Origin: Leptospiraceae bacterium
GTDB lineage: Bacteria; Spirochaetota; Leptospiria; Leptospirales; Leptonemataceae
Length of the DNA stretch: 64,000 nucleotides
Assembly: GCA_025059995.1 (NCBI GenBank)
Contig: JANXCF010000002.1
Coordinates: forward strand, 124,001 to 188,000
Reading direction: 5' to 3'
Part shown: positions 1,275-30,424 of the stretch, piece by piece
Numbering within the stretch: the stretch's first letter is position 1
Layout of the letters: every line of letters begins with the position of its first letter
Notes under the pieces: generated by a model
Told to the model about the DNA's origin: nothing
The model's input: the letters and a program-made list of their open reading frames with translations, nothing else
Database searches by the model: none
Program-made: the position numbers and the translations under genes

Positions 1275-3374
1275 ATGAATACTACATTAGATTTTACAAA
1301 AGCAATTGAGATTGCCAAAAATACGTATTGGATTGGAAAGTATTTAGAAAATGACCCATTTCAATGTCATCCCTATTTAATCGTTAACAATAACGAATCT
1401 ATCCTGATAGATCCTGGCTCTATGTTAGAGATTGATGCAATTATAGAAAAGATTAACAGTGTATCTAATATACAAAACATTAAATATATCATACTTCACC
1501 ACCAGGATCCCGACTTAGCAGCAGCGGTTCCTTACTTGGAAACATTAATCCAACGGGATGATTTGGTAATTATTACCCATAGTAGGATGACGTTTTTAGT
1601 GAAACATTATGGAATTAAATCTCAATATTATCGCATTGATCATCAGAACTTCGAGATAGACATAAATGGATATAAATTAAAGTTTTATACAACTCCCTAT
1701 TGTCATTCACCTGGCGCCTTTATGACATATGACGTTCAAACCAAAGTGCTATTTTCAAGTGATTTGTTTGGTGGATTAGAAGAAAGTTGGGAATTCTACG
1801 CAGGTGATGATTATTTCAAAAAAATTGAAGGTTTTCACATGGCATACATGCCAAGTAGAGATATCTTGAACTATTCTTTAAGAAAGATCGAAAACTTGGA
1901 TATTGAACTTATAGCACCTCAGCATGGATCAATCATTACTAAAGACAAAATTAAGCCATTGATTGAGAAAATGAAAGAAATGGAATGCGGCTTGTATATA
2001 GAAAAGAAATATTCAGAGGATTTAACTTCAACTATTTTGAAATTGAATCAACTCAAAAAAGAGTTTGAAGTTTCATTGGAAGAAATCAAGCAATTGAAAA
2101 GAAGTCAAGATGGTGATTATTATCTTGCTACTTTATTGATTAAGCCATTGATTGTAAATAAAATCAATAGCGATAAATTCAAGATAGATTTTATCAACAT
2201 TCAAAAGAAATCTTTTCTCTTCAAGAATAAACACAATCAGTTAGGTGGTGATTTGTGTTATGCAAATTATATAAAAATCAATAATCAGAACTATATCTTG
2301 TTTTTTAACGGCGATGCCATGGGGAAATCCATTCAGGGAACGAGCGGTGCAATCGTGATGGGGACAATTTTAAACTCCATTTCTTATCGTCATTTTGATT
2401 ATGTTCAAAGTATGTCGGAATTCTTTCACATATCAGAATTTTTCTATGAAATTTATAATGAAATTCAAAGTATCTTTCTTTCATTTAGTGGAGCTATGAT
2501 GTTATCAGGTGTTTTAGGAATCATTGATGAAAAAGAAGAAAAGATGTATTATATCAATGCAGAACATCCTTATGTGGTTCTTTATAGAGATGGCAAAGCA
2601 AGTTATATAGATAAAGAACTAACACTAAGAAAATTTGGATTTCTTTCTGAGTTTTCTTTGAAAGTAAATATGTTTGATTTCAAAGAAAATGATGTGATAT
2701 TCATAGGAAGTGATGGTAAAGATGACCTTTTACTTTATGATGGTGTTGAAAAAAAATTAAACACAGATCCAAATCTCTTTTTGTCTATTGTTGAAAAAAA
2801 TCAAGGGAAGTTGAAAAATATAATTAATTTTATTTATAAAATTTCAGAACCTACAGATGATATATCAATCATGCGAATTTCTTTTAAGGAACATAATTAT
2901 AATAAAAATCATCATATTATTGATGAAGATAGAATATACAAAATCAAGATCAAAAGTTATATTCGCCAGAAAAACTTTAAAAAGGCTTTGGAATTAATGG
3001 AAGGACCTTCAGAAAATCAACCAGTTGATATTCTACTTTATCGAGGATATTGTTTCTTGAATTTGCAAAGGTATCTCAAAGCTCTTAAGTACTTATTGAA
3101 GGCAAAAGAAAAACAACCTGATAATCCAGTTGTGTTGAAGTTTCTTGGATTAGCTTATTATTACTTAAAGAACTATAAGTTAGCAAAAGAATATTGGGAA
3201 AAAGCTATAGAATTAAAACCAGAAGATTCCTTGCTCAATAAAAATTTGAAAAAAGTCAATTCTATTTTGGAACGCCAACGAGTATTGATGGGAAAAGCAC
3301 AAGGATTATCACAAGGGGTAGATAAGAAAGAACAACAAATAGATACACTCAAATATGAATTAGAAAAGATTTAA
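1275..3374 (+). CDS. Fusion of oxygen-binding di-iron (ODP) domain, SpoIIE/PP2C phosphatase and TPR repeats
   Basis: This 699-residue protein has no transmembrane segment. Residues 1-235 form a metallo-beta-lactamase fold of the flavodiiron/ODP type. The predicted iron ligands are H76, D78 and D80 (in HHQDPD), H144 (CHSPGA), D163 (FSSD) and H217 (PQHG). No flavodoxin domain follows, so it is more likely a sensor than an oxygen or NO reductase. A short, probably coiled linker leads to a SpoIIE/RsbU-type phosphatase (about 285-535) with metal-binding positions in GGD (D326), NGDAMGK (D347), SDG (D480) and TDD (D528, D529). TPR-like helices occupy about 560-660. I infer an O2-, NO- or redox-controlled phosphatase acting on an anti-anti-sigma factor or similar partner. 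No such partner is encoded next to it. The stop overlaps the start of the following methyltransferase (TAATG). Confidence 0.85.
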   Translation: MNTTLDFTKAIEIAKNTYWIGKYLENDPFQCHPYLIVNNNESILIDPGSMLEIDAIIEKINSVSNIQNIKYIILHHQDPDLAAAVPYLETLIQRDDLVIITHSRMTFLVKHYGIKSQYYRIDHQNFEIDINGYKLKFYTTPYCHSPGAFMTYDVQTKVLFSSDLFGGLEESWEFYAGDDYFKKIEGFHMAYMPSRDILNYSLRKIENLDIELIAPQHGSIITKDKIKPLIEKMKEMECGLYIEKKYSEDLTSTILKLNQLKKEFEVSLEEIKQLKRSQDGDYYLATLLIKPLIVNKINSDKFKIDFINIQKKSFLFKNKHNQLGGDLCYANYIKINNQNYILFFNGDAMGKSIQGTSGAIVMGTILNSISYRHFDYVQSMSEFFHISEFFYEIYNEIQSIFLSFSGAMMLSGVLGIIDEKEEKMYYINAEHPYVVLYRDGKASYIDKELTLRKFGFLSEFSLKVNMFDFKENDVIFIGSDGKDDLLLYDGVEKKLNTDPNLFLSIVEKNQGKLKNIINFIYKISEPTDDISIMRISFKEHNYNKNHHIIDEDRIYKIKIKSYIRQKNFKKALELMEGPSENQPVDILLYRGYCFLNLQRYLKALKYLLKAKEKQPDNPVVLKFLGLAYYYLKNYKLAKEYWEKAIELKPEDSLLNKNLKKVNSILERQRVLMGKAQGLSQGVDKKEQQIDTLKYELEKI

Positions 3375-7419: not shown

Positions 7420-8136
7420 ATGAAATTTCTCGACAAGTACAAACTCAAATTATGGAAAAAAAAGTATTGTAATAGTAAAAATTCATCTATGGCGGTTTGC
7501 CATTACTTAGAAAGCATCGAAAAAAATAAAATCTTTACAGAACCGGAAAAAAATCGTTATATAATTTTAGATACTGAAACAACGGGATTGGACTACAAGA
7601 ACGATCAGGTTCTATCGATTGGAGCGATTAGGATTGAGAATTTGGAAATCAATATCAGTGATTCTTTTGAGGTGATACTACAAACAGAAACGGCAGGTGA
7701 CAAAGAAAGTATCGCTGTTCACGGAATTCGAACTCAAGATGTGAAACAAGGAATTCAAAGGGATTTCGCCTTCGAGCAGTTTCTTTATTTTTTGCAGGGT
7801 GATATTATTGTTGGACATCACATTCTTTTTGACAAGCTAATTTTATCAAACAACATCAAAAAAATTTTTTCGATTGAGTTACTTAATCCCATCATTGATA
7901 CGTTCGATGTTGCTATTTACTATGAAAACCTTGTAAAAAAAAGAAATGTGATTCCTGAAGAGGCTAATCCAGAGGAATTTTCTTTGGATAATCTTTTGAA
8001 TAGATTTCGCATCAAAAGCAGTGGAAGGCATACTTCCATTGGGGATGCACTGCTAACTGCGGAGTTGTTTCTCAGAATGATGAAAAAATTAATCCAACAA
8101 AAAAACTTTCGAATTGAAAGTTTAATCAAATATTGA
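7420..8136 (+). CDS. DnaQ-type 3'-5' exonuclease
   Basis: This 238-residue protein is an RNase T/DnaQ superfamily exonuclease (DEDDh type). Exo I is D51-T-E53 in LDTETTGL, Exo II contains D138 in GHHILFDKL, and Exo III is H204 with D209 in GRHTSIGDA. The segment VHGIRTQDV (about 100-108) is also typical of epsilon-like exonucleases. An N-terminal stretch of about 45 basic residues precedes the domain. It is encoded 3 bases after the CBS/DUF294 gene. In many bacteria this pair replaces a stand-alone dnaQ, but the replicative proofreader of this organism could instead be elsewhere, so I assign no symbol. Confidence 0.85.
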   Translation: MKFLDKYKLKLWKKKYCNSKNSSMAVCHYLESIEKNKIFTEPEKNRYIILDTETTGLDYKNDQVLSIGAIRIENLEINISDSFEVILQTETAGDKESIAVHGIRTQDVKQGIQRDFAFEQFLYFLQGDIIVGHHILFDKLILSNNIKKIFSIELLNPIIDTFDVAIYYENLVKKRNVIPEEANPEEFSLDNLLNRFRIKSSGRHTSIGDALLTAELFLRMMKKLIQQKNFRIESLIKY

Positions 8137-8205
8137 TTCTTTTGTTTTTGTTAAAAAAATCCCGTGTGATTTCTTGTTCAATCCACCGAAATAAAAATTG
8201 ATTTT

Positions 8206-10311
8206 ATGAAAGCGAAATCTCGTATTTCTCAAAATTCTCGTTTAATATCCGAAATCCCTGTGGAAGTATTATCAGGCTTGGGAGAAGCTAAAAAAAAAGC
8301 CTTAGATAAAATTGGCATTCATACGATTGAAGATCTTTTGTATTTTTTCCCACGAAGGTATGTGGATCGAAGTTTCCACGAGGAGTTTTTCTTGAAGGAA
8401 GGAAACATAACTTTGATTGTAAAAGTTCAATCTTCGTTTTTGGCTCATGGCAGAAAATCCCGCTTGATGGTTCAATGTAAAACCCTAAAAGGAAATTCCT
8501 TGACACTAATATTTTTTAATGGTTTACAATATTATCGATATGCCTTTCAAAAAGAAAAAAATTATGTGGTTTCAGGAAAATTAGAAATCTATAAAGGTTC
8601 TTATCACATGATTCATCCAGAAGTAGAAGCAATCGACGAAGAAGATATTCACCAAGCTATACACAGCGGAGGAATTATCCCAATTTATTCTACAACAGAA
8701 GCTCTAAAAAAAGTAGGTTTAGATAGTCGAGGTTTTCGAAGGTTGATACATCAAGTTCTACAAAAGATCGAAATGGAATGGGTGGTTCCTGAGATCTTCC
8801 CAGAAGAAATTCGAAAAAAATACAAACTCCCATCTCGAAAAGATGCCATCAAGCAAATCCATTATCCTGAATCAAGAGAGTCTTATAGAATTGCCAACAG
8901 AACATTAAAGTTCGAGGAGTTGTTTCTATTTGGTGTTTTGATTCATAAGAAAAAAGAAACTCGAAAGTCTTTTCCCAGACAAGTTTATCCTCTATCTTTT
9001 GGAGAAAGCAAACTTTTCGAAATCCTAAAAAAGAATCTTCCGTTTGAGTTAACAAACGGACAACAACAAGCCATACAAAAGATGCTCGAAGGTTCTAAAC
9101 GTCCCTATATGTCGGCATTTTTGCTTCAAGGGGATGTAGGTTCTGGGAAAACCCTTGTGGCTTTTTCAGTAGCTCTGCATTATATCGAAAAAGGATATCA
9201 AGTAGCTCTGATGGCACCAACGGAACTCTTGGCTCGCCAACATTACAATACTTTATCCACTTTACCGGGTTTTATTCCTGGGGTGCAATTAGATCTCCTC
9301 ACAGGTTCAGAAACCAAAAAAAATAAAGAAATTGTATTGGATCGGATCAAACGGGGTGATAGTAACTTTATTATTGGAACCCATAGCTTGATTGAACCTA
9401 ATGTGGAGTTTCATTCATTAGGATTGGTTATCATCGACGAACAACATCGATTTGGCGTGCAACAACGGGAAAACCTACGTCAAAAAGGGAAAAACCCAGA
9501 TTTGATTGCCATGACAGCAACACCCATTCCAAGGTCCTTGTGCTTAACTATTTTTGGAGACTTGGAGTTAGTGTATCTCAAAGAAAAACCTGCGGGGAGA
9601 AAACCCGTCAAAACCATGTGGTTAAGAGAACACCAACGAGAAGGACTTTATAAATCCATCAGAAAGTATCTCCAACAAGGAAGACAGTGTTATATTGTTT
9701 ATCCAGTCATTGAGGAATCAGAAAAGCTGGATTTGAAGGCAGCAACCGAAGCCTATGAGGAGTTAAAAACCCAAATCTTTCCTGAGTTTCGCGTAGAACT
9801 CATTCACGGAAGAATGAAGCCCGAGGAACGAGATAAAATCATGAGGGATTTTCGAAATGGCAAAGTCCATATTTTAGTAAGCACAACTGTGATTGAAGTG
9901 GGAGTTGATGTTCCCAATGCTACTATAATGGTGATTGAAAATGCAGAAAGATTTGGGCTTTCACAACTTCATCAACTACGAGGAAGGGTTGGTCGCGGAA
10001 CAGAAGAGTCTTTTTGTGTTTTGGTGTCGAATAGTGATTCTTCGGCTGCGAAAGCGCGACTACAGGCCATCGTAGAAATACAAGATGGTTTTGAATTGGC
10101 TGAGATTGATCTTAAAATCCGAGGACCTGGCGAGTTATTGGGAACAAAGCAACATGGACTTCCTGATTTTCGTTTATCGGATTTTGTGAAGGATCGAAAA
10201 TTAATGGAAATAGCTTATAGTGAAGCCACTCAATATCCTCACATTAACGAAGAAGCCATTAAGTTTTTGAAGAAGAGTTTTTCTGAGGGTGTGATGGTGT
10301 TTCCCAATTAG
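8206..10311 (+). CDS. recG: ATP-dependent DNA helicase RecG
   Basis: RecG remodels stalled replication forks and branched recombination intermediates. This 701-residue protein is full length for the family. An N-terminal wedge/OB region starts with SGLGEAKKKALDKIGI, a helix-hairpin-helix-like entry typical of RecG. Walker A is GDVGSGKT (about 309-316), motif II is DEQH (about 411-414) followed by RFGVQQR, motif III is TATPIPRSL (about 437-445) and motif VI is LRGRVGRG (about 591-599). The C-terminal TRG-like segment includes LKIRGPGELLGTKQHG. No Shine-Dalgarno sequence is visible before the ATG. The last 53 bases overlap the convergent DUF2892 gene. Confidence 0.96.
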   Translation: MKAKSRISQNSRLISEIPVEVLSGLGEAKKKALDKIGIHTIEDLLYFFPRRYVDRSFHEEFFLKEGNITLIVKVQSSFLAHGRKSRLMVQCKTLKGNSLTLIFFNGLQYYRYAFQKEKNYVVSGKLEIYKGSYHMIHPEVEAIDEEDIHQAIHSGGIIPIYSTTEALKKVGLDSRGFRRLIHQVLQKIEMEWVVPEIFPEEIRKKYKLPSRKDAIKQIHYPESRESYRIANRTLKFEELFLFGVLIHKKKETRKSFPRQVYPLSFGESKLFEILKKNLPFELTNGQQQAIQKMLEGSKRPYMSAFLLQGDVGSGKTLVAFSVALHYIEKGYQVALMAPTELLARQHYNTLSTLPGFIPGVQLDLLTGSETKKNKEIVLDRIKRGDSNFIIGTHSLIEPNVEFHSLGLVIIDEQHRFGVQQRENLRQKGKNPDLIAMTATPIPRSLCLTIFGDLELVYLKEKPAGRKPVKTMWLREHQREGLYKSIRKYLQQGRQCYIVYPVIEESEKLDLKAATEAYEELKTQIFPEFRVELIHGRMKPEERDKIMRDFRNGKVHILVSTTVIEVGVDVPNATIMVIENAERFGLSQLHQLRGRVGRGTEESFCVLVSNSDSSAAKARLQAIVEIQDGFELAEIDLKIRGPGELLGTKQHGLPDFRLSDFVKDRKLMEIAYSEATQYPHINEEAIKFLKKSFSEGVMVFPN

Positions 10312-15849: not shown

Positions 15850-15957
15850 TGAAATTTTACTTAAAAGAAACTATTTACTTTATTTAAAAAAACTAATTGC
15901 AATCAAATTCAATAATAATTGATTGTTAGGGAAAAGTATTCCAATGAAGGTCAGTTT

Positions 15958-18459
15958 ATGAAATCCAACGATTTTCAGTTCACAAGATATCAAAAAAACT
16001 ATAATTACAAAAAATTTCTTTGGGAATTTCTTTTGAGGAGTGAAGTCATAGGATTTGGGGTATTAACGCCTATATATGCAATTATTGTTTATTTTTCATT
16101 GGATTTTCAAATAATCCATTTTAGTTTTTTGATTTCTGCTATTATCGCGGTTTTGATTCTTTTAATATATGTTTTTATATCAACCTTTGTGTTTTTGAAA
16201 CCCATTAAAAGACTGATAAAGTTCATATTTGAAAATGAAGGAAGTTTAAAAGAAGAAGAATTACGAAAATATCTAAATTTACTATTTCGTTTACCTTTAC
16301 GAAGGAGTATTGATGTTTTGATAAGAATCATTTTAGGATCAATTGTTTTTTCGGTAATATTGAGTTTATTTGTCGAACTTAATTTATTTCAGTTTGTAGT
16401 AATTACTTCGATTTTATTCATGTTTTCATCAAGTGGTGCATTGATTTATTACTTTTTATTGGAGTATATGGTAATCAAGTTAGTCAATAGCGAGGTCTTT
16501 CGTTCTAAGGTTCAAATTGCTAACTTAGAAAACATAAGATTTGTAAAACTTAAATATGTGGTATCTTATCTTTTGTTTTTGGTTTTTTTCTTTTTTGCCT
16601 CATCTGCTGGTTTTGTAAGCTCCCAGTTTGGGGAATATTGGAGCAAACAAATCCAGCGAGAAAGTTCCCTTCTAACTTTGATTAGTATTAAAGATGAATT
16701 AAATAGTTTCTTTATCAATCTTAAAAACGAAATGCAGAAAAACGAATTGAACTCCAAAGAAAAAATATCCCATAGTCATTTCCTTTCTACTCATCCAATT
16801 GTATTAGATTATGGTATTTTTGATTTAAAAGAAAATGAGTTTATTTATCTTCAATCTCATTATTTGCTTAATGAAATCGAAGAAATCAAAAAGTGGATTA
16901 AGAGTAATCAAAAAGAATCATTTTTCCCTTATACATTAACTAAAGGAGAACCCATCAGAGTCCTTGCTTGGATAAGACCTTTTCAAGATGAGTACTTTCA
17001 TGTTCTTTTTTTGAAGGCAAATGATTTGGAAAGAAAAATCTTTAGAAAATCTGAAAAAGATAATATGTTTTTTCTTACCGATGAAAAAGGAAATATTTTG
17101 ACTTCATCCAGCCTTGAGTTTTTAAATCAAAATGTAATAAATTTGAGTCCTTTGATTTCTTTGGAAAAAGAAAGTAGCTTTTTTGAGGATATTTCTTACA
17201 ATCGAAAATCTCATGAATTGCAGTATGTAAGTTCGAAAGTTTTTCCCTTTAAAATAGCTAATCTATTTGATGTTTCATTGTATCAAGAGCGGATTTCGTT
17301 TGCTGTTTTCTTGATTGTGAGTTTATTTTTAAGTGGTGGATTGATTCTTATTGGTATTATATTTTATGTTCTAAACACAAAACTAAAACACTTAGAAAAC
17401 ATCAATGAAGTCATAAATTTTTTATCGCAAGGTCGTTTTCATAGAGAGGTTTTATTGATTACAAATGATGAATTTGGTGATTTAGCTATATCCATCAGTA
17501 ATTTGAAAGAAAATTTATACGAAATCATTACTCAAACAAAAAAGGTGGTGAATTTGGTCAAGGACTCAGCCCAAAGTTTTATTGTTTTGGTGAATCAGTT
17601 GGTCCAGGATTCTGAGAATGAAGCGGCAACCACGGAAGAAATCTCTGCTACCATCGAAGAAATCTCAGCCAGCATGGATCGAATCTCAGAATATGCAAGC
17701 GAACAAAATCACTTGATTGAAAATCTCTCTAAAACTGTGAATGATCTGACTATTATAATCAAACAAGCTCAAGAAAATCTTAAAGAAATCAAAGAAATCA
17801 TAGCAGAAGCAGACACCCTCAAAAGTGAAAGTGAAAAAGAAATGAATACCATTACCAAGGCTATGGGGGAAATTCAAGAAACCTCAAGTAAAATTACTTC
17901 CATTACGGGGATTGTAAAAGACATAGCAGAACAAATCAATTTGCTATCACTGAATGCTTCTATTGAGGCAGCAAGAGCTGGTGAGTATGGGAAAGGTTTT
18001 GCTGTGGTAGCCGATGAGGTATCGAAATTAGCAGAAAAAACTCGAAGTAGCATAAAAGACATCAATACATTGATAAAAAATTCCAGCAATCAAATTCAGC
18101 AAGGAATTCAAATTACGAATAACTTCAAAGAACTATTAGGAAGACTTTTAAAGGAATTCCAAAAAATCCATCAGCTTAGCTCAAAGATTTCTGAGGTTAT
18201 AACCAAGCAAGAGTTTGTCAATGTTGGGGTATTATCACAAACAGATCAGGTGAAAAAGAAATCTCAAGAAGTTCAAAGAAGCACAGATGAGCAAAAATTA
18301 GCTGTAAGAGAAATTACTTCTTCGATTTCTACTATCAACCGTGCCATTTTGAGTTCTACTGAAAATGTTCGAAAGATACACTCAATCGCAAAAGAATTAG
18401 AAAGCAAAATCCAAGAAGTCGAGCAAGTATTACAATACTTTCATATCCAAGGAAATTAG
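15958..18459 (+). CDS. Methyl-accepting chemotaxis protein with multi-span N-terminus
   Basis: I start this 833-residue protein at the ATG at 15958, which has GAAGG seven bases upstream; the longer frame begins at a TTG. The N-terminal 220 residues contain about five hydrophobic spans, followed by a periplasmic region of about 200 residues without a recognised sensor fold. A further span ([21 protein letters not shown]) precedes a HAMP-like segment (about 470-530) and a long MA signalling domain. The conserved hairpin tip reads [22 protein letters not shown] (split here by position: about 652-673). There is no CheR-binding pentapeptide at the C-terminus. The ligand is unknown, and no che genes are adjacent. 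The stop overlaps the convergent HIT gene by four bases. Confidence 0.93.
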
Positions 18460-29231: not shown

Positions 29232-29420
29232 ATGAGTTCTTTAAAAACAATAGAAGAATTTTTCTATCATTCTTTTCTAAAGCAAAAGGTGATCATTTTG
29301 ACAGAATATAAATTGCTCAAAGAGCTGATAGAGTTAAAAAATGAAATACCCTATTTAGGGTTTTATATCCAGCCTATTTCTAAGAACGAAAACATGATTG
29401 TTATCACAAAGATAATCTAA
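29232..29420 (+). CDS. Small protein of unknown function
   Basis: This 62-residue open frame fills an otherwise empty 287-base gap between the S41 peptidase and H-NOX genes. Its composition (mixed hydrophobic and charged residues, MSSLKTIEEFF, KVIILTEYKLLKELIEL, YLGFYIQPISKN) looks like a folded alpha/beta protein rather than noise. It ends four bases before the convergent H-NOX stop. No Shine-Dalgarno sequence is visible and I recognise no family. Confidence 0.4.
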   Translation: MSSLKTIEEFFYHSFLKQKVIILTEYKLLKELIELKNEIPYLGFYIQPISKNENMIVITKII

Positions 29421-29424
29421 AGGT

Positions 29425-29949
29425 TCAATATTCAAACTCAATTTCTACTTCTTCTGAAGAAAGCTTTCTTATCTTTAAATTCTCATTATAATATTTTCCT
29501 ACTGAATGTATTAAAGCAATCATTAAGTCTATCAATCCTCTTTTGGATTTGTATTTCATTTTGAGGGTTCTTTTGTCTTTCCAGTGGTATTCAAATCGTG
29601 GGGGATTTGCATCTGGTATTGTCTTGGTGGTTTCGTAATGAACTTCATCCATCTTTAGCAGAAATTCTTTGGCATTCTTACATTCATCATAGTAGTGCGA
29701 AAAAACTCTTGGTGCGTATTGAAGTGTCCAGTAGTCTGAGAATAGTTCAAAAATTTGCCGGTTTGTGAGGTTGAAGGTTTTGCCAATGGCATCAATAATA
29801 CAAAAAACTAAAGTATCAGGAACATCTTCGGTTGCGAGAAAAAATGTATCTTTTCTTAGGTTGCACATCTCTAAGAGTTTCTGCCATTGTTCTTTCCCAA
29901 AATTTTTTGTAATCAGTTCTTCTATTGCTTCAACAATTATGCCTTTCAT
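29425..29949 (-). CDS. Stand-alone H-NOX (heme NO/O2-binding) protein
   Basis: H-NOX proteins bind heme and sense nitric oxide or oxygen. Counting from the ATG at 29949 (MKGII, the usual family start; an ATG three codons upstream is possible), this 174-residue protein has the proximal heme ligand H104 in MDEVHYETTK and the heme-propionate clamp Y133-x-S135-x-R137 in YKSKR, with the preceding IPDANPPRFEYHW also typical. The position matching Tyr140 of the oxygen-binding Thermoanaerobacter protein is Leu142, so by the established distal-tyrosine rule this should be an NO sensor rather than an O2 binder. Usual partners (histidine kinase, diguanylate cyclase, chemoreceptor domain) are neither fused nor adjacent. 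Confidence 0.88.
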   Translation of the reverse strand: MKGIIVEAIEELITKNFGKEQWQKLLEMCNLRKDTFFLATEDVPDTLVFCIIDAIGKTFNLTNRQIFELFSDYWTLQYAPRVFSHYYDECKNAKEFLLKMDEVHYETTKTIPDANPPRFEYHWKDKRTLKMKYKSKRGLIDLMIALIHSVGKYYNENLKIRKLSSEEVEIEFEY

Positions 29950-30064
29950 TGTTAACATAGATTCTTTATTTCACTTGATTCGTAAAGTCTTTTTTTTCTT
30001 GATAGGCTTAATAGGTTTGATACGTTTTTATTGATTTTGAGTGTATGTGTGATTGTTTATCTTT

Positions 30065-30424
30065 ATGGAAATTATGAAGATCATTTCTGAGATATACCAG
30101 TCAGGGAGGTATTTGGATTCTGCGGTTTTCACCGAAGAAGAACTGAATTTTTATGAAAAGAAACTCGGAACTCTTTTCCCTAAAGACTATCGGGTTTTGC
30201 TTCTTTCTGTGGATCCCGACATCCCTGATTTTTTCTTCACCATTCCAGAACGGCATCCTAGTCTAAAAAATTATATCTTGATTGCCAAATACAAAGAATA
30301 TGACATCGCTTTTGATCGAAAACATAACATGAAGGTGGTATACCTCTTGGAGGATCAAAAAGTCGAAATTTACGAGAACTTCTTGATATGGTTTGAGCAG
30401 TTTTGGGAAAAAGCGAAAAAATGA
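30065..30424 (+). CDS. SMI1/KNR4 (SUKH)-like small protein
   Basis: This frame gives about 119 residues from the ATG at 30065; an ATG at 30074 and a TTG at 30053 are alternatives, and no strong ribosome-binding site decides between them. TEEELNFYEKKLGTLFPKDYRVLLLSVDP resembles the N-terminal signature of the SUKH fold (an E-E-hydrophobic-x-x-F-E-x-x-L-G-x-x-P-x-D-Y pattern). SUKH proteins often serve as immunity proteins or adaptors, but no toxin is visible here. Its stop is one base from the stop of the convergent secreted VWA gene. Confidence 0.5.
   Translation: MEIMKIISEIYQSGRYLDSAVFTEEELNFYEKKLGTLFPKDYRVLLLSVDPDIPDFFFTIPERHPSLKNYILIAKYKEYDIAFDRKHNMKVVYLLEDQKVEIYENFLIWFEQFWEKAKK

Follow-up and report, generated by a model that had tools for sequence, protein, structure and literature searches.

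A stand-alone H-NOX protein from a Leptospiraceae bacterium with an apolar distal pocket, and its relatives beside chemotaxis and CO dehydrogenase genes

We have found that a 64-kb stretch of DNA from a Leptospiraceae bacterium (64,000 nucleotides, hereafter the window) carries an intact gene for a stand-alone H-NOX protein on its minus strand. On balance we lean towards reading the product as a soluble, single-domain sensor of NO (and CO) that would form no stable complex with O2 and would act in trans on a partner, for which a chemotaxis system is the likeliest candidate.

Identity of the H-NOX protein

The gene, at 29425..29949 (minus strand), encodes 174 amino acids; an alternative in-frame ATG at 29958 would add three codons, making a product of 177 residues possible. 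The protein matches the HNOB profile (PF07700) with 130.7 bits (6.3e-38), above the curated cut-off of 25.5, and its top match in the PDB is the Nostoc H-NOX Alr2278 (E 4.5e-17). AlphaFold (AF2) gives a model with a pLDDT of 94.4 and a pTM of 0.88, for which the first matches returned by Foldseek are the Tt/Cs and Nostoc H-NOX structures (TM 0.87-0.89; 0.88-0.89 for 1u4h, 2o09 and 4iae). The preliminary description of this DNA had placed an orphan H-NOX here, and reading frame, strand, profile score, PDB match and fold all agree with it: the product is an intact H-NOX, fits well into a known family, and is predicted to bind haem. No other HNOB match occurs in the genome that contains the window (G000, 2.38 Mb), and the GC content of the H-NOX gene (33.5%) is ordinary. 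Comparison with plasmids gave nothing above 24% identity and comparison with phages gave no match, while promoter-like matches near the gene are no more numerous than chance would provide.

The distal pocket and O2

Residue conservation was counted in an alignment of 54 homologues, in all of which H104, P117, Y133, S135 and R137 are invariant. H104 (codon 29638..29640, minus strand) is the proximal haem ligand, P117 is the proximal proline, and the last three residues form the haem-propionate clamp YxSxR, here Y133-K-S135-K-R137 (29539..29553, minus strand); the earlier statement that ligand and clamp are intact is thus borne out. The same alignment, at the column five residues beyond R137, places L142 (29524..29526, minus strand) where the Tt/Cs H-NOX has its O2-stabilising Tyr140, as had been proposed. 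Across the 54 sequences this column holds F, I, L, V, M or Y, with tyrosine found only in one protein of the same family as the query (L016) and in three clostridial proteins fused to an MCP (L093, L094 and L096).

In the Cs H-NOX, Trp9 and Asn74 are the partners of Tyr140 in an O2 triad, and a role has also been described for Trp74 of the Nostoc protein (PMC7356049). The query aligns W74 (29728..29730, minus strand) with Nostoc W74 and Cs N74, and its distal pocket of I9, W74 and L142 is apolar and of the Nostoc type, with the O2 triad absent. The three clostridial MCP-fused proteins show W9/N74/Y142, the O2-binding triad, and so the alignment is able to detect this triad where it is present; set against these controls, the pocket of the query backs the earlier prediction that O2 is excluded. 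The preliminary description would have counted another tyrosine in the distal pocket as evidence to the contrary, and the alignment shows none at any other known distal position of the query, Y73 being common to the NO-selective Nostoc protein. Since the query has no distal tyrosine, a stable O2 complex is not expected under the established distal-tyrosine rule, a prediction from sequence that we regard as well supported.

It seems to us very improbable that the protein senses O2 despite lacking the Tyr140 equivalent. The pocket has evidently changed within the family, given the tyrosine of the homologue from genome G008 (L016), but in the query L142 is accompanied by I9 and W74, and Y73 is shared with the Nostoc protein. 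We note that the G008 protein (L016:8110-8655) combines its tyrosine with W74 and M9 in a mixed pocket, and that its gene adjoins one that reads as a MarR-type regulator. Separately, an HNOB match in genome G060 (L020:7557-8069) has neither the proximal histidine nor YxSxR, and its product is probably not a conventional haem binder.

Among characterised proteins, Alr2278 of Nostoc sp. PCC 7120 (Ns H-NOX, 2o09) resembles the query in fold (TM 0.88), proximal histidine, YxSxR motif, W74, apolar pocket and stand-alone form. The two are nevertheless 20% identical in the structural alignment, Ns H-NOX has a one-residue insertion after R138, and the query differs from it in lacking both of the family's hinge glycines. 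The Tt/Cs H-NOX (1u4h), the O2 sensor of an MCP, likewise shares the fold (TM 0.89) as well as the haem ligand and the clamp, but it has Trp9/Asn74/Tyr140 and is fused to the MCP, whereas the query has I9/W74/L142 and is unfused.

The hinge glycines and the fate of the gene

If the protein behaves as its family does, its ferrous haem would bind NO (and CO) without forming a stable O2 complex, and NO would break the bond between the iron and H104, upon which the two subdomains would shift. In studied proteins NO binding rotates the distal subdomain about two glycines, in helices alpha-D and alpha-G (PMC8196705, PMC7108781). The preliminary description did not mention that both of these conserved glycines are absent from the query, where S71 (29737..29739, minus strand) replaces the alpha-D glycine, which is G in 52/54 sequences, and A145 (29515..29517, minus strand) replaces the alpha-G glycine, which is G in 46/54; the assignment comes from the alignment and from helix positions in the model rather than from a superposition. 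Among the 54 aligned proteins, serine at position 71 is otherwise seen only in L085 (S71, S145), which is the unbroken H-NOX protein of congener G003. Hinge glycines are a signalling feature, not counted here as defining H-NOX membership, and they vary in known members, a native alanine in the hinge having been reported (Hespen 2018, as cited in PMC8196705). Loss of both implies that the switch would either be more rigid than that of the proteins studied or work differently, and the query is in this respect a natural H-NOX variant.

HNOB is present in 8 of the 48 genomes of the class. Of the three congeners, G001 and G002 have no H-NOX, while G003 has two: an intact one, 34% identical to the query, and a broken copy that is 59% identical over the last 82 residues and contains five stops. 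This pseudogene (L018, about 7944-8450, minus strand) lies in a region with restriction-modification-like genes. With its hinge glycines gone and a congener's copy broken, the query may be losing its role, and one might regard it as a remnant, still intact but with no current partner. The position of the gene at a gene-order breakpoint and the absence of H-NOX from G001 and G002 would fit such a reading; the full-length open frame, the retention of every haem residue, the ordinary GC content and the confident model speak against it, and we think it quite unlikely.

The gene and its neighbours in the window

The H-NOX gene is convergent with, and 4 bp from, an ORF of 62 amino acids (29232..29420, plus strand) and divergent from a SUKH-like gene (30053..30424, plus strand; SMI1_KNR4 5.5e-5, just under the curated cut-off), and it consequently reads as a single-gene unit. 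The protein is a single domain, and no kinase, cyclase or MCP gene adjoins its gene, the flanks being the 62-amino-acid ORF, beyond it an S41 protease gene, and the SUKH-like gene; in this the preliminary description was right. Throughout the 64-kb window no che gene is fused to, or in an operon with, the H-NOX gene, and the closest MCP gene (15919-18456) is 11 kb away. This want of a nearby partner counts against the reading of the protein as an NO sensor linked to chemotaxis.

The two flanking genes had been put forward as the nearest candidates for a partner, and neither can be retained. The 62-amino-acid ORF, divergent from the S41 protease gene, has homologues in G002 (35%, E 0.001) and in G003 (43% over 30 amino acids, E 0.017), each just upstream of the S41 gene and pointing away from it. 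It is part of the S41-protease locus, and with H-NOX missing from G002 altogether we place it outside the H-NOX unit. All of G001-G003 have the SUKH gene (68-75% identity), in a different setting and in none of them with an H-NOX gene beside it. In G002 and G003 the block from S41 to nadB is separated from the SUKH gene, which puts the breakpoint at H-NOX itself.

A putative partner encoded elsewhere

Signalling would then take place in trans, on a partner whose gene lies elsewhere; this is most likely, if uncertainly, a chemoreceptor or CheA. The other candidate is a histidine kinase or diguanylate cyclase, as in Shewanella, Vibrio and Legionella; the stand-alone H-NOX proteins characterised to date as a rule have such a partner (PMC8738867, PMC8196705). 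The query conforms to the NO-sensing stand-alone type in being a single domain with no distal tyrosine, but the adjacent kinase or cyclase, usual though not universal in that type, is missing; the Shewanella and Vibrio H-NOX proteins that work with HnoK are stand-alone and of the NO type like the query, which has no neighbouring kinase. The Vc H-NOX moreover uses a C-terminal zinc site, and the query, whose cysteines are at 29, 50 and 90, has none near it. Distant class-mates do bear the arrangement: in G025 a kinase-like HNOBA protein (44.3 bits) is encoded beside H-NOX, and in G038 and G042 a gene that we read from sequence as a class III cyclase. On the other side, single-family scans of G000 gave no HNOBA match above the cut-off, and an HNOBA partner in the host was rejected; the recurrent neighbours in the close subfamily, furthermore, are Che proteins and CooS. 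A kinase or cyclase partner therefore seems unlikely to us.

Relatives in chemotaxis operons

A contig search with the single query sequence found nothing, while an alignment of four Leptospiraceae homologues, used as query, found 57 loci. Relatives 40-51% identical to the query occur in bacteria (Nitrospirae, Omnitrophota, WOR-3, Bacteroidales, Thermotogae and Electrothrix) and in many archaea (Methanophagales/ANME-1, Methanoperedens, Lokiarchaeota and Thermoplasmata), the taxon labels of these MAGs being those of the submitters, whose bins may include foreign contigs. All 46 aligned sequences from L040-L089 keep the haem residues and have no tyrosine at the key column. In a tree the query falls inside this subfamily, but the placement is unsupported, with long branches, poor resolution and mixed phyla, and we accordingly claim no donor lineage.

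The stand-alone proteins of Methanophagales and Methanoperedens (L042-L064) are 43-48% identical to the query and share its pocket type, but several of their genes lie in che operons or adjoin cooS, whereas the query gene lies alone. In Methanophagales the gene order is CheB - H-NOX - CheA, with CheB and/or CheA flanking L042, L043, L045, L046, L051 and L057; one CheB was scanned against NCBIfam (386.7 bits, cut-off 293) and one CheA gave 480 bits to its best family, below the equivalog cut-off, the other CheB and CheA genes being assigned by tblastn. L052 lies within a che cluster (CheA/CheB), L061 has an MCP gene 16 bp downstream, in Treponema (L086) an MCP-like protein ends in a C-terminal H-NOX, L087 is probably a similar fusion, and near L089 are genes that read from sequence as CheY- and CheX-like. 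The preliminary description had proposed a check of the relatives for a neighbouring histidine kinase; in the close subfamily the neighbours point to che genes and cooS instead of a kinase associated with H-NOX. That many relatives have neither chemotaxis nor CO dehydrogenase genes nearby counts against the chemotaxis reading.

Since the H-NOX genes of close relatives lie in che operons or encode chemoreceptor fusions, a chemotaxis system is our best guess for the partner of the query, and a tentative one, drawn purely from kinship with proteins 34-51% identical. The host genome itself contains 17 MCP-signal matches.

Relatives beside CO dehydrogenase genes

H-NOX genes lie beside cooS at L056, L058, L060, L063, L064, L068, L075, L079, L080, L134 and L140, and the three CooS neighbours tested against TIGR01702 scored 593-652 bits (cut-off 478). 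Of 13 Methanoperedenaceae genomes that have H-NOX, 8 have cooS within about 350 bp of it, one of these loci being at a contig end; in Nitrospirota (L058 and L068) it is divergent from H-NOX at about -170; and in Heliobacterium (L079 and L080) it is about 1.5 kb away, with an FAD oxidoreductase gene between. Two other H-NOX genomes of the Heliobacteriaceae order have no cooS within 1.5 kb. By chance, 0.05-0.09 adjacent H-NOX/cooS loci would be expected over 19 cooS genomes; the observed loci are not independent, but they still stand for three distinct lineages that differ in arrangement. These stand-alone proteins encoded beside cooS may possibly be CO sensors.

The ligand of the query is probably NO, by family precedent, with CO a possible ligand. 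The earlier prediction is supported in so far as O2 should be excluded; however, the distal-tyrosine rule tells O2 binders from non-binders and says nothing on the choice between NO and CO, and several relatives flank a CO dehydrogenase gene. A stronger proposal would be that the stand-alone subfamily reports CO, its binding of NO being incidental. The recurrent adjacency to cooS in three lineages, far above the chance figure, argues for this, as does the reported preference of Methanoperedens BLZ2 for CO rather than methane as its electron donor (PMC13079737). It is opposed by the genomes of the Methanophagales che-operon relatives and of L052 and L061, which contain no full-scoring CooS, and by the query's own genus: no Prismane match (CODH/Hcp) was found in G000-G003, CODH and Hcp are also absent from four further genomes of the class, and a CODH or Hcp link in the genus was rejected. 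It is opposed too by L073, where an Hcp-like gene is found 1 kb away. Hcp is an enzyme tied to NO and hydroxylamine. We give the proposal that the subfamily reports CO a low probability. The L073 frame itself (2836-3354) contains one in-frame stop, and its neighbour, taken for CooS by clustering, proved to be the Hcp-like protein instead.

The host has neither an Hcp nor a NorB-like gene, and hence by these two markers shows no NO metabolism in need of a sensor, which counts against our reading. Genes that read as NorCB-like occur in G002 and G003 and not in G000, so co-occurrence of H-NOX with NorCB was rejected, as was the reading as NirK of a multicopper oxidase encoded close to G003's second H-NOX gene (86 bits against a cut-off of 296). 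We also note a COX1-family gene broken by stops in G002 (C7:117067-118390).

A search of freely available full texts for H-NOX together with 'carbon monoxide dehydrogenase' found no paper, nor did the literature search find a report of the stand-alone anaerobe subfamily with its che and cooS neighbours. The published work on how Methanoperedens metabolises CO makes no mention of HNOB or of a sensor.

Discussion

Reviews assign O2-binding, chemoreceptor-fused H-NOX proteins to obligate anaerobes; the stand-alone NO type, partnered by a kinase or cyclase, they place in aerobes and facultative anaerobes (PMC8196705, PMC8738867). The relatives described here are stand-alone and without a distal tyrosine, come from strictly anaerobic lineages that include ANME archaea, and are encoded beside CheA/CheB or cooS. 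With them, the questions of ligand, NO or CO, and of partner become testable in cultivable hosts such as Heliobacterium. This subfamily and its neighbours are a more interesting result than the query protein alone. We suggest, as a speculation that we think somewhat unlikely to hold in full, that the anaerobe stand-alone subfamily is a plug-in sensor of NO or CO that acts through the CheA-MCP array or controls the Ni-CO dehydrogenase, and that the partner of the Leptospiraceae member is encoded elsewhere. Were this so, some lineages would use H-NOX to sense CO, and obligate anaerobes would no longer conform to the rule of O2-binding, MCP-fused H-NOX proteins.
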